Shown piece after piece: positions 12,716 through 16,536 of a DNA stretch of 64,000 nt. A program made the translations under genes and the position numbers. Within the stretch, counting starts at the first letter, position 1. Each line of letters starts with the position of its first letter. Below the pieces are notes generated by a model. It did not search any database. It was not told the DNA's origin and saw only the letters and a list, made by a program, of their open reading frames with translations. The DNA lies in NCBI RefSeq assembly GCF_003387155.1, contig NZ_QUMT01000002.1:997694-1061693 (forward strand), read 5' to 3'. Source of the stretch: Roseateles depolymerans. GTDB taxonomy: Bacteria > Pseudomonadota > Gammaproteobacteria > Burkholderiales > Burkholderiaceae_C.

Positions 12716-12780
12716 CTAGGGGGGTCAGGTCATCCCAATACAAGGCATTCCGGCCGACGGTTCCTAGACTCATCCGGCCG
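12716..12780 (+). promoter_or_regulatory. Shared promoter module, copy 1 (polyester hydrolase 1)
   Basis: Contains ctagggggg, then caatacaaggcattccgg, then ttcctagactcat and ggccgc. The same blocks with nearly the same spacing occur at 14564-14630 before the second hydrolase. TAGACT (12765-12770) could be a -10 element. There is no good -35 element, which suggests activator-dependent transcription. Confidence 0.65.
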
Positions 12781-12885
12781 CCGTGCGCGCCCGGCTCCGC
12801 TTGCACCGTGGGACCGGCTTCCCCTGCAAGACCCTTGTGCAGACGGGACGCGGCGGCAGCCAATGTCACGAAACAGGGAGACACC

Positions 12886-13758
12886 ATGAACTTCACGACC
12901 CTCTGGCGTCGCCATGCGCGCGCCTGCGCGCTGGCGGCTTCTGTCGTGCTGGCCATGTCCGCGACCAGCGGCTGGGCGCAGCAAACCGGCCCCGATCCCA
13001 CCTCCGCCAGCCTCAATGCCACCGCCGGGCCCTTTGCGGTGAGCACGGCCACGGTCACCTCGCCGGTGGGTTTTGGGGGCGGCACCATCTACTACCCGAC
13101 CATTGCGGGCCAGTACGGCGTCGTGGCCCTGAGCCCGGGATTCACCGCGACACAAAGCAGCGTGGCGTGGCTGGGTCGGCGGATCGCCACCCATGGCTTC
13201 GTGGTGGTCACGATCAACACCAACAGCACGCTGGACCAGCCGGCCAGCCGGGCCAACCAACTGATCGCGGCGCTGAACTACGTGGCCAACAGCGCGAGCA
13301 CCACCGTGCGCAGCCGTGTCGACGCCAGCCGTCGCGCAGTGGGCGGGCATTCGATGGGCGGTGGCGGGTCCTTGATCGCGGCGCAGAACAACCCCAGTCT
13401 GAAAGCCATCCTGCCGCTCACGCCGTGGAACCTCAGCACCAACTTCAGCGGCGTTCAGGTCCCCACGCTGATCGTGGGCGCGGACGGGGATGCGGTGGCG
13501 CCGGTGGCCTCCCATGCCCGGCCGTTTTATGCGAGCCTGCCCAGCACCGTGCGAAAGGCCTACGGTGAACTGAACATGGCCAGCCATTCCACGCCCACCA
13601 GCGGGGTGAACACGCCGATCGGACGTTATGGCGTGACCTGGATGAAGCGCTTCGTCGACGGCGACACCCGCTATTCCACCTTCCTGTGCGGCGCGGAACA
13701 TCAGGCCTATGCCACGGCCACGGTGTTCGACCGCTACAGCCAGAACTGCCCTTACTGA
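12886..13758 (+). CDS. Secreted polyester hydrolase / PETase-like cutinase-family enzyme, copy 1
   Basis: 290 residues, the same length as IsPETase. GGGAG sits six bases before the ATG. The signal peptide ends SATSGWA before QQTGPDPTS. The alpha/beta-hydrolase triad is visible by alignment to IsPETase: Ser156 in GHSMGG, Asp202 in ADGDAVAP, His234 in ASHSTP. Trp181 (PWNLSTNF) matches the substrate-stacking Trp, and Phe86 (GFTATQSS) replaces the IsPETase Tyr. His155 replaces the IsPETase Trp159. Cysteines 268 and 288 keep the C-terminal disulphide, but the extra active-site disulphide is absent, which makes it closer to type I bacterial cutinases. It probably cleaves aliphatic or aromatic polyesters outside the cell. 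It is 12 bases upstream of a foldase-like gene. Confidence 0.88.
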   Translation: MNFTTLWRRHARACALAASVVLAMSATSGWAQQTGPDPTSASLNATAGPFAVSTATVTSPVGFGGGTIYYPTIAGQYGVVALSPGFTATQSSVAWLGRRIATHGFVVVTINTNSTLDQPASRANQLIAALNYVANSASTTVRSRVDASRRAVGGHSMGGGGSLIAAQNNPSLKAILPLTPWNLSTNFSGVQVPTLIVGADGDAVAPVASHARPFYASLPSTVRKAYGELNMASHSTPTSGVNTPIGRYGVTWMKRFVDGDTRYSTFLCGAEHQAYATATVFDRYSQNCPY

Positions 13759-13770
13759 CGGAGGTCCGCC

Positions 13771-14511
13771 ATGCCGAAACCGCACAAGCGGAGCACCGGC
13801 TGGCGCATCTTTGGCCTGGCCCTGATTGCAGGGCTGGGCGCCGCCGGGCTGTATGCCTGGATGGCGGATGCGACCTCGCCGGAGCACGTCATCGCCAATC
13901 AGCAATTCCCCTGGGCGCAGACGCCGGGCACGCCGCGCCCCGCAGATGGGCAAGGCACCGCGGGGCTGTCCGCGACGGAACTGGCCGCGATGGCCGCGAC
14001 CGGCGCGGGCGACCCGGACGGCCTGGGAGGCCCGGGGAGTGCGGGAGGTCCGCGCCAGCGGCCTTTCCGGGTCGACGCGCGGGGTCAGTTGGTGACCGAC
14101 CAGACCCTGAGGCTGGAACTGGAGTCGCTGCTGGCCTTGCAGCAAGGGGCCGCGCAGACCGCCGCGCTGGAGGCGCAACTGGCGGGCCTGCCCGCCGCTG
14201 CCGCCGCGCAGGCGCGTCAACTGCTGAGCCAGCTTGCCAGCTACCAGGAGGCTCAGCGACAGGCCTTCCCGCCAGACCAGGCGCCGCTGATGCCTGAGGA
14301 AGGCCTGGCGCAACTTGCAGCCCAGCAGTCGCTGCGCGCCACCTATCTCGGCGCGGAACCTGCGCGGCAGATGTTTGCGCAGGACGATGCCGTGTCCCGG
14401 CGCATTCTGGAATTGATGCGGGAGGATCCTTCCCCCCATCTGTCCATGTCGGAAAAGGCCGTGCGGGCGCAGGCCCGTTACGACGTCGAGCGCAAGGGCA
14501 GCCAGCCCTGA
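13771..14511 (+). CDS. Lipase-chaperone (LifO/foldase)-like membrane-anchored protein
   Basis: 246 residues with GGAGG seven bases before the start. One N-terminal membrane anchor (IFGLALIAGLGAAGLYAW) is followed by a Pro/Gly-rich linker and an Ala/Gln-rich helical domain. Segments match steric lipase chaperones: FRVDARGQLVTDQTLRLELE, LPAAAAAQARQLLSQLASY, then LRATYLGAEPARQMFAQDDA and a C-terminal LSMSEKAVRAQ. Normal foldases run about 330-350 residues and carry an RxxFDY..LSAxGE motif. Here the equivalent region reads LRLELESLLALQQG, so the key motif is not conserved and the protein is short. It likely helps fold one or both flanking hydrolases in the periplasm; this is inference. A strong terminator follows. 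Confidence 0.68.
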   Translation: MPKPHKRSTGWRIFGLALIAGLGAAGLYAWMADATSPEHVIANQQFPWAQTPGTPRPADGQGTAGLSATELAAMAATGAGDPDGLGGPGSAGGPRQRPFRVDARGQLVTDQTLRLELESLLALQQGAAQTAALEAQLAGLPAAAAAQARQLLSQLASYQEAQRQAFPPDQAPLMPEEGLAQLAAQQSLRATYLGAEPARQMFAQDDAVSRRILELMREDPSPHLSMSEKAVRAQARYDVERKGSQP

Positions 14512-14518
14512 AGGCGCA

Positions 14519-14552
14519 CCCACGTGCCCCGCTGGCCGGCACGTGGGTTTTT
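14519..14552 (+). terminator. Rho-independent terminator after the foldase-like gene
   Basis: Perfect 10-bp stem cccacgtgcc/ggcacgtggg with a 9-base loop, followed by five T. It starts eight bases after the stop codon. It separates the first hydrolase-foldase unit from the second hydrolase. Confidence 0.93.
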
Positions 14553-14563
14553 CCCGATGCGAG

Positions 14564-14630
14564 CTAGGGGGCGAATAGCGCGGCCAATACAAGGCATTCC
14601 GGGACGGGATTCCTAGACTGGATTGGCCGC
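14564..14630 (+). promoter_or_regulatory. Shared promoter module, copy 2 (polyester hydrolase 2)
   Basis: Contains ctaggggg, ccaatacaaggcattccggg, ttcctagact and ggccgctgtgc, matching 12716-12780 block for block. The candidate -10 is TAGACT at 14614-14619. Shared control by one activator is the simplest reading. Confidence 0.65.
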
Positions 14631-14708
14631 TGTGCATCGGGGTCAGGCGTGTACTGCCCGCACCGATGCCACGCGGTTTGGTCCAACGTGCCATCACAGG
14701 GAGACATC

Positions 14709-15590
14709 ATGACCCTCACCTCGACTCTGCGTCGTCAGACACGCACCACCGCCACCGCCACCGTGCTTGCAGCCGCTGCCGCCCTGGCCCTTTGCGCCGC
14801 TCCCGCCAGCGCGCAGCAGACCGGCCCGAATCCCACCTCGTCCAGCCTCAATGCCACCTCCGGACCCTTTGCCGTGAGCAGTGTGTCGGTGGTGGCGCCC
14901 ACAGGCTTTGGCGGCGGCACCATCTATTACCCGACGACCGCGGGCCAGTATGGCGTGGTCGCCATCAGCCCCGGCTTCACGGCGACCGAATCCAGCATCG
15001 CCTGGCTGGGCCGGCGGATGGCCACGCATGGCTTCGTGGTCGTCACCATCAACACGCTCACCACGCTGGACCAGCCCGCCAGTCGCGCCACGCAGTTGAT
15101 GGCCGCGCTCAATCATGTGGTCAACAGCGCGAGCAGCACGGTGCGCAGCCGCGTCGACCCCAACCGGCGCGCGGTGGCCGGGCACTCGATGGGCGGCGGG
15201 GGCGCGCTGATCGCGGCGGAGAACAACCCGGGCCTGAAGGCAGCACTGCCGCTGACCCCGTGGAACCTCACCACCAACTTCAGCGATGTGCAGGTGCCGA
15301 CGCTGATCGTGGGCGCCGACGGCGACACCGTGGCCCCCGCAGCGATCCATGCAAGACCGTTCTATGCGAGCTTGTCCAGCTCGGTGCGAAAGGCCTATGC
15401 GGAGCTGAACTTCTCCACCCACTTCACCCCCAACACCACCAACACACCGATTGGCCGCTATGGGGTGACCTGGATGAAGCGCTTTGTCGACGGGGACACG
15501 CGGTATTCCACCTTCCTGTGCGGCGCCGAGCACAACGCGTACAACACCGCTCTGGTGTTCGAGCGTTACAGCCAGAACTGCCCTTACTGA
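14709..15590 (+). CDS. Secreted polyester hydrolase / PETase-like cutinase-family enzyme, copy 2
   Basis: 293 residues with GGGAG six bases before the ATG. An Ala-rich signal peptide ends CAAPASA before QQTGPNPTS. The triad by alignment is Ser160 (GHSMGG), Asp206 (ADGDTVAP) and His238 (STHFTP). Trp185 matches the wobbling Trp of IsPETase, and Phe239 occupies the position held by Ser in IsPETase, as in classical cutinases. Cys271 and Cys291 form the conserved C-terminal disulphide. It is clearly paralogous to copy 1, including the PWNL.TNF and [21 protein letters not shown] blocks. The pair differs next to the catalytic His (Ser-Thr-Pro against Phe-Thr-Pro), so substrate ranges may differ. Confidence 0.88.
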
Positions 15591-15690: not shown

Positions 15691-16536
15691 ATGCACAAGA
15701 CATTGGCCACGCCCCGCCTGGGGCTGCTGGGAGACAGCTTCATCTATGCCGGCCCCAACATCCAGGCGGATGTGTGCCGGCATTCCGTGACCCTGGCCTG
15801 CGCCCTGAGCCAGCAGCCGCTCAGCATCCATGCCGCAGGCCGATGTTGGCAGGGGCACCTGCTGGTCATCCGGCCGTTTCTGAAGCGGACGGTGGACACC
15901 GGCAGCGCGCCGGTAGCGCTGATCGACCTGGAGCCGTCCCACCCCCGCTACAACACCTTCAGTTGCCAGGCGCCGGAGGCGTCCGTCACGGCCCTGGATG
16001 CCGCGCGCTTCGCGGGACTGCTCGCCTGCGTGCAGGGCTTCGCTCAGCAGCGGCTCAGCGGACCGCAGTTGCGGGCGGCCGTCTGCCTGCATGTGGCCGA
16101 CGTGGCGGACAGCATTGGGCCCGAGGTGCCAGTGTCTTCGCCGGTGCTGCAGATGATGGCGGCGGTGCGGATGGATCCCGCGTCCGATCTCGGGATGCTC
16201 AGTCGCCGGGTCGGCTTGCCGGCGCGGCGGGCGTCACAGCTGTTTGTCTCGGCGCTGGGCCTGACGGTGCGGCAGTACGCCCTGGCGGAGAAGATCCGAC
16301 GCGCCGCGATGTTCCTGGGCAGCAGCCGGCCGCTCACCGACATTGCGCAGCTGTGCGGCTTTGCCGACTCCGCCCATCTGGCCAAGGTCTGGCAGCGATG
16401 TTATGGGATGTGCCCGTCGACCTTCTTCGGCGGACGGCTGGCACCCCACAACGGCAACCTGGATCTGGCCTGGCGACAGCAGGTCAGCCTGGCGGGATCG
16501 CTGGCCAACCGATGGGAGAGCGGCGCGGCGGATTGA
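15691..16536 (+). CDS. AraC-family transcriptional regulator
   Basis: 281 residues from the ATG at 15691; an upstream in-frame ATG at 15625 falls in the preceding hairpin and is less likely. The C-terminal 100 residues form the AraC DNA-binding domain: first helix-turn-helix in DLGMLSRRVGLPARRASQLF, linker FVSALGLTVRQYALAEKIRRA, second in PLTDIAQLCGFADSAHLAKVW. The N-terminal half is a ligand-type domain without a recognisable fold. It follows the second hydrolase by 100 bases on the same strand and is a natural candidate activator of the two matching promoters, though no binding data can be read from sequence. Confidence 0.85.
   Translation: MHKTLATPRLGLLGDSFIYAGPNIQADVCRHSVTLACALSQQPLSIHAAGRCWQGHLLVIRPFLKRTVDTGSAPVALIDLEPSHPRYNTFSCQAPEASVTALDAARFAGLLACVQGFAQQRLSGPQLRAAVCLHVADVADSIGPEVPVSSPVLQMMAAVRMDPASDLGMLSRRVGLPARRASQLFVSALGLTVRQYALAEKIRRAAMFLGSSRPLTDIAQLCGFADSAHLAKVWQRCYGMCPSTFFGGRLAPHNGNLDLAWRQQVSLAGSLANRWESGAAD

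Follow-up and report, generated by a model that had tools for sequence, protein, structure and literature searches.

A half-length LifO-type foldase gene between two PETase-family hydrolase genes of Roseateles depolymerans, and its pairing with PETase genes in sampled genomes

The window analysed here, a stretch of 64,000 nucleotides (nt) from the Roseateles depolymerans genome (NCBI RefSeq assembly GCF_003387155.1, contig NZ_QUMT01000002.1, positions 997,694 to 1,061,693 of the forward strand), contains a cluster of four genes on its plus strand. In order, these encode a secreted PETase-family hydrolase of 290 residues (hydrolase A, 12886..13758), a half-length LifO-type foldase of 246 residues (13771..14511), a second secreted PETase-family hydrolase of 293 residues (hydrolase B, 14709..15590) and an adjoining AraC-family regulator (15691..16536; PF12833, E-value 6e-14). 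A preliminary description of the sequence had placed the cluster at 12716..15590, of which the end is exact whereas the start lies approximately 170 nt upstream of the ATG of hydrolase A. The middle gene was found to encode the N-terminal half of a LifO foldase and to be one of a group of half-length genes that accompany nearly all PETase genes in the genomes sampled.

Hydrolases A and B were 78% identical and both matched PF12740, the PETase family, with 359 bits (E-value 1.7e-107) for A and 365 bits (3e-109) for B against a cut-off of 28; no other protein of the 5.66 Mb genome exceeded that cut-off. The nearest matches in the PDB were chains of poly(ethylene terephthalate) (PET) hydrolases and cutinases, with best E-values of 5e-101 (A) and 2e-104 (B). 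Residues were identified by sequence alignment to IsPETase and a distant relative. The alignment revealed the catalytic triad and substrate tryptophan in A (Ser156/Asp202/His234/Trp181), the equivalents numbered four higher in B, and in both proteins the GxSxG motif and the equivalent of the IsPETase substrate residue Trp185. The column of IsPETase Trp159 is occupied by His in A and B, and the residue following the catalytic His (position 238) differs between them, A having Ser and B Phe. Ala and Thr occupy the columns of IsPETase Cys203 and Cys239, so that both proteins lack that disulphide, and the C-terminal Cys pair is retained. These results bear out the preliminary description with regard to the triad and tryptophan, the absence of the second, PETase-type disulphide and the Ser/Phe difference. 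Judged by the missing Cys203-Cys239 pair and Trp159, A and B are not of the IsPETase type, which we take to be the one named IIb, and presumably resemble the type I enzymes. The assignment of both to the PETase family, with polyester hydrolysis as the predicted activity, is supported by these comparisons. The ratio of nonsynonymous to synonymous substitution rates (dN/dS) was 0.05-0.07 for hydrolase A and 0.12-0.13 for hydrolase B. Grouping with dienelactone hydrolases, which would have contradicted this assignment, was rejected: PF01738 matched B with 24 bits (cut-off 21) against 365 bits for PF12740, and was not listed for A. An AlphaFold model of hydrolase A computed from seven sequences had a mean predicted local distance difference test score of 34 and was discarded.

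The deduced product of the middle gene comprises a predicted N-terminal membrane helix (residues 13-31, 13807..13863, plus strand; 19-residue Kyte-Doolittle mean of 1.79), a variable linker and the N-terminal half of LifO, namely MD1 and the first part of the extended helical domain (EHD), without MD2. Alone, the protein scored slightly under the cut-off of PF03280, for which it was nevertheless the top match of the genome (two further matches were at chance level), and far under that of the NCBIfam lipase secretion chaperone model, which it matched with an E-value of 9e-10 over profile positions 13-213 of 336. The 28 aligned half-foldases matched PF03280 in 28 cases and NF002334 in 27 (E ≤ 0.01). 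A phmmer search of the PDB with the window protein alone returned two chance-level matches and no foldase; the family profile alone found foldases, with a match to the LifO chain 9g8u_B at 9.5e-15. A Foldseek structure search returned LifO foldases as all of its top four matches. The profile and structure matches support the foldase-like character first noted for this gene. The 28-member alignment and profile leave out L067, L079, L097, L098, L099 and L102, which duplicate or closely resemble included loci, as well as L113-L116. Hydropathy reached 1.6 in 23 of the 28 and 1.19-1.40 in three more; the start codons of the two falling below were probably set too far downstream.

The alignment of the half-foldases stops near residue 218 of 2ES4 and residue 231 of 9G8U, indicating the absence of MD2 and of a complete EHD. 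The MD1 foldase motif RxxFDY(F/C)L(S/T)A is degenerate: the Arg is kept in 23 and the Glu/Asp in 27 of the 28 members, the F column is without Phe, and the Tyr column holds Tyr or Phe in none. The length following the shared region was bimodal, with 0-37 residues in 42 half-length rows and in three more, and 117-131 residues in 20 full-length rows. The hidden Markov model used for searching was built from 29 sequences, five of them full-length LifO, and it is length, not score, that separates the two classes. The C-terminal ends are alike across dozens of diverged half-foldase copies. The dN/dS of the window half-foldase against two relatives was 0.14, within a range of 0.09-0.24 for half-foldases, values that indicate a gene under purifying selection.

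The distribution of the pair was investigated in genome scans; those of the family and of the class, and the reverse search described below, scored at most six candidates per genome, and their counts may therefore be low. At E ≤ 1e-25, PF12740 matched at least 24 genes in at least 12 of 399 genomes of the family. Inspection of 4-18 kb around each PETase gene revealed a half-length LifO gene clustered with 23 of these 24, at most one gene away; the sole exception (G159:C1:3070051) had no half-length LifO gene within 6 kb. In the genus Roseateles, PETase genes were found in 11 of 16 genomes, eight of the 11 lying outside the family draw, and all 11 carried the half-foldase partner. A class-wide draw of 369 genomes contained at least two PETase carriers besides the R. 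depolymerans genome, both belonging to one family of another order. That family had PETase genes (E ≤ 1e-30) in 6 of 21 genomes, each with one or two half-length LifO genes downstream, and no additional PETase carrier was found in the whole of that order (109 genomes). Counted without overlap, a half-length LifO gene is present in 26 of 26 PETase-bearing genomes and clusters with 38 of 39 PETase genes. The preliminary description had regarded the foldase-like gene as the unusual part of the locus, a view that these results do not support, the partner being the norm in the genomes sampled, IsPETase included. The hydrolase of genome G053 is identical to IsPETase (PDB 6qgc) over 290 of 290 residues, on account of which this genome is very probably Ideonella sakaiensis, and its half-foldase gene lies approximately 0.2 kb upstream in divergent orientation.

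Gene orientation varies between lineages, and the linkage has therefore survived rearrangement. The order hydrolase A, foldase, hydrolase B, AraC, the first three genes of which the preliminary description had proposed to look for in other Burkholderiales, was also found in R. terrae and in one metagenome-assembled genome labelled Rubrivivax. The remaining eight PETase-bearing Roseateles genomes have a single PETase gene followed by the foldase and AraC genes, and an AraC homologue adjoins the cluster in all 11. The less common features are, at the R. depolymerans locus, a second hydrolase gene accompanied by a copy of the promoter region and, more broadly, a foldase that comprises the N-terminal half alone. 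The ratio of hydrolases to foldases varied elsewhere as well. Tandem half-length LifO genes follow one PETase gene in three of the six second-family genomes (L094, L114 and L115), the second copy of L114 being a weak match (E-value 1e-4). In two genomes of another genus (L063 and L066), tandem PETase genes share one divergent half-length foldase gene; judged by these arrangements, two hydrolases per foldase arose outside Roseateles too.

The reverse search, with the half-foldase profile over the 399 family genomes, returned at least 46 matches (E ≤ 1e-8) distributed over 32 genomes, 24 of half length, 18 of full length and four that were not measured (G344:4441709, G047:C12, G121 and G349). 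Of the strongest 21 (E ≤ 1.5e-48), 20 have a PETase gene next to them; one of these 20 PETase genes, that of G220, is truncated where its contig stops (72 bits to PF12740) and is outside the 39 counted above. The other match, on a Piscinibacter plasmid (L067:9270-10070), has no PETase gene of its own and lies approximately 2 kb from that of its neighbour; the matching cassette of G212 retains its PETase gene. In G132, G047 and G164 (loci L110:5611-7265, L135:1462-3215 and L136:416-2145), a half-length LifO gene directly follows a gene for an extracellular polyhydroxyalkanoate (PHA) depolymerase that scored 263-271 bits against an NCBIfam cut-off of 150, and these three genomes had no PETase match at E ≤ 1e-25. 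Thus, as read from gene neighbourhoods, which for full-length LifO genes were those of the G212, G344 and G368 copies, half length tracks a polyester-hydrolase neighbour in this family, and the results suggest PHA depolymerases as a second client type of half-length foldases. Other arrangements were also seen. Loci L080 and L081 each carry two full-length LifO-like genes beside a GFSQG serine hydrolase without a Pfam or NCBIfam match, and by eye the FDY motif is absent from these LifO proteins too. At L082:4194-6908, a gene for a PpiC-type peptidyl-prolyl isomerase is flanked on one side by a gene with weak resemblance to lipases and on the other by one for a full-length LifO.

Distances between PETases were compared with those between their half-foldases for 32 pairs, yielding a Mantel r of 0.81 that was reached in none of 2000 permutations. 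Three cassettes of G212 each group with their G344 counterpart and not with their neighbours. The nearest neighbours of G062 and G352 differ between the PETase and half-foldase trees.

The intergenic regions of the cluster contain candidate regulatory elements. The foldase gene starts 12 nt past the stop codon of hydrolase A, and GGAGG, resembling a ribosome-binding site, lies in the gap (13760..13764, plus strand), from which it follows that the two genes are probably co-transcribed. A 52-nt direct repeat on the plus strand occurs upstream of hydrolase A (12735..12786; CCAATACAAGGCATTCCGG, then TTCCTAGACT) and of hydrolase B (14584..14635), the two copies being 77% identical. With at most three mismatches, the first 19 bases of the repeat were found in the PETase regions of five of the 11 PETase-bearing Roseateles genomes, twice each in G000, G218 and G771 and once each in G770 and G773, that is, two copies in two-PETase genomes and one in two single-PETase genomes; they were not found in the PETase regions of the other six. 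A hairpin with a terminal T run downstream of the foldase gene (14518..14548, plus strand) is a weak candidate terminator, with a fold energy of -22.5 kcal/mol that was equalled or bettered in 7 of 200 shuffles. Scans for a sigma-70 consensus and for a consensus terminator returned no site, and the promoter and terminator calls are based on the repeat, on its presence in some of the genomes and on a moderately significant fold. Hydrolase B most plausibly arose by tandem duplication of A together with the promoter region; the dN/dS between A and B was 0.18.

From homology, the half length, the predicted membrane helix, the near-obligate linkage, the agreeing distances and purifying selection, we consider it likely that the product of the middle gene is a chaperone anchored in the membrane and acting in the periplasm, that it either derives from the N-terminal half of LifO or is a sister of it, and that the exported polyester hydrolases encoded next to it are its dedicated clients. 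Hydrolases A and B would be exported by Sec, and the half-foldase would fold them or keep them competent for secretion by a type II system; two type II secretin genes of the genome exceed the GspD cut-off. One half-foldase would serve both tandem-duplicated hydrolases at this locus. PETases have been produced in E. coli without the half-foldase, which favours a folding assistant over an obligate steric foldase. The PDB holds at least 50 distinct IsPETase-type sequences, a count that does not reveal how the proteins were produced. Since MD2 and the motif Tyr are absent, the half-foldase would bind transiently or weakly and assist. A passage of PMC7046727 describes isolated MD1 of P. aeruginosa as unable to activate LipA and as slowing, not replacing, activation by the foldase; because the half-foldase keeps the N-terminal half alone, weak or transient binding is again to be expected. 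The reading we favour is a holdase or an assistant of folding, tethered in the periplasm, that would increase the yield of the hydrolases or their competence for secretion, and a homodimer rebuilding the two arms is possible. The Mantel figure is inflated by species history; the cassette pattern is less prone to that weakness.

The linkage data would fit equally well an inhibitor or retention factor that holds the mature hydrolase inactive or tethered in the periplasm until export, and the folding of PETases in recombinant hosts without the half-foldase is also in keeping with such a role. The slowing of activation by isolated MD1 (a passage of PMC7046727) points the same way, but homologues characterised in passages of PMC7046727 and PMC13381987 are activators and the periplasm offers no evident target for a PETase to damage, making inhibition unlikely. 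Slightly less probable still is an adaptor for secretion only, which would take no part in folding and would hold the folded hydrolase near the type II machinery. The retention of the predicted membrane helix and long variable linker would suit such an adaptor, as would the secretin genes, but the use of type II secretion by these hydrolases is an assumption, and no secretion gene was found in the one fully annotated cassette inspected, other cassettes not having been scanned for such genes. The inhibitor and the adaptor are inseparable by sequence. A length of about two thirds of LifO, scores under curated cut-offs and the in-frame TAG near the end of the G062 copy could instead mark a leftover of an old lipase operon that has been carried along passively and now has no role for the PETases. 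Against this stand the range of dN/dS values, the like C-terminal ends of so many diverged copies, the cassette-wise grouping and the linkage in all 26 PETase-bearing genomes despite altered orientation; such a remnant is highly improbable, and a simple relic was rejected on the dN/dS values and conserved ends.

Held more tentatively than a dedicated chaperone at this locus is a wider proposal, in which half-length chaperones anchored in the membrane may form a class of their own that serves the polyester hydrolases of Gram-negative bacteria. The clients would come from two alpha/beta-hydrolase families that are unrelated to each other, the PETase type, including IsPETase, and the extracellular PHA depolymerases, and the chaperones might clamp these lidless enzymes with a single arm or as homodimers. 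If so, work on PETases made in E. coli without the half-foldase would have been done away from the route by which these enzymes are naturally folded and secreted. Few enzymes have been engineered as intensively as PETases, yet nearly every PETase gene in the sampled genomes is accompanied by one for a half-length foldase; co-expression of the half-foldase could, if the proposed function is true, increase PETase yield or secretion, and a functional half LifO would reveal the minimal machine of a steric chaperone. The preliminary description mentioned a two-esterase arrangement reported in R. depolymerans. On this, a table in one review lists for strain TB-87 an enzyme of 27-31 kDa that degrades aliphatic-aromatic co-polyesters (PMC9603655), and another review names the same R. 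depolymerans strain as a degrader (PMC12504347), the respective passages giving no gene order. The pairing of PETase and half-foldase was not found in the open-licence literature, subscription papers and preprints being outside the scope of the search. What is new here, on the sequence evidence, is the half length and the new clients within the known LifO kind, the pairing being strong and the function predicted.

Among known systems, PDB entries 4cg1 and 5zoa, which we take to be actinobacterial cutinases or type I PET hydrolases, rank with the nearest solved structures for both hydrolases. A and B share with what we take to be the cutinase pattern a His at 159 and the lack of the Cys203-Cys239 pair, and A differs from it by Ser at 238. 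In contrast to the locus described here, no half-foldase gene was found within 5 kb of any of three actinobacterial homologues on plasmid records (one of them unannotated, and a second Clavibacter plasmid left out). The closest relatives of the half-foldase are the LifO foldases (PF03280), such as Burkholderia glumae Lif (2ES4), Acinetobacter baumannii LipB (9G8U) and P. aeruginosa LipH. Common to both are the N-terminal membrane helix, the variable linker, MD1 and the first part of the EHD, a gene beside that of a secreted alpha/beta hydrolase, and the motifs GxL..D...R...(E/D) in the first helix and (Y/H)(F/L)(G/D)...A..(L/M)F later. The half-foldase is approximately 100 residues shorter, without MD2 and the end of the EHD and with the degenerate RxxFDY(F/C)L(S/T)A motif, and its gene adjoins that of a PF12740 hydrolase or of a PHA depolymerase in place of a family I lipase. 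The half-foldase on a 201-kb plasmid of Piscinibacter gummiphilus (NZ_CP136337.1) is 100% identical over 248 residues to the one linked to IsPETase, and RefSeq labels it 'lipase secretion chaperone' beside a 'poly(ethylene terephthalate) hydrolase'. That cassette (L151, NZ_CP136337.1 156507-169223), 99.4% identical over 3.8 kb to the Ideonella-like contig, lies between an IS1071 transposase gene and an IS91-like element and includes a 68-residue AraC remnant; from this context the PET-degradation genes on the plasmid look mobile. The IsPETase locus and this plasmid resemble the R. depolymerans cluster in holding PETase, half-length LifO and AraC-family genes together; they differ from it in that the half-foldase gene is divergent and not downstream, in having one PETase per half-foldase, and in the extra Cys pair and Trp159 of the enzyme.

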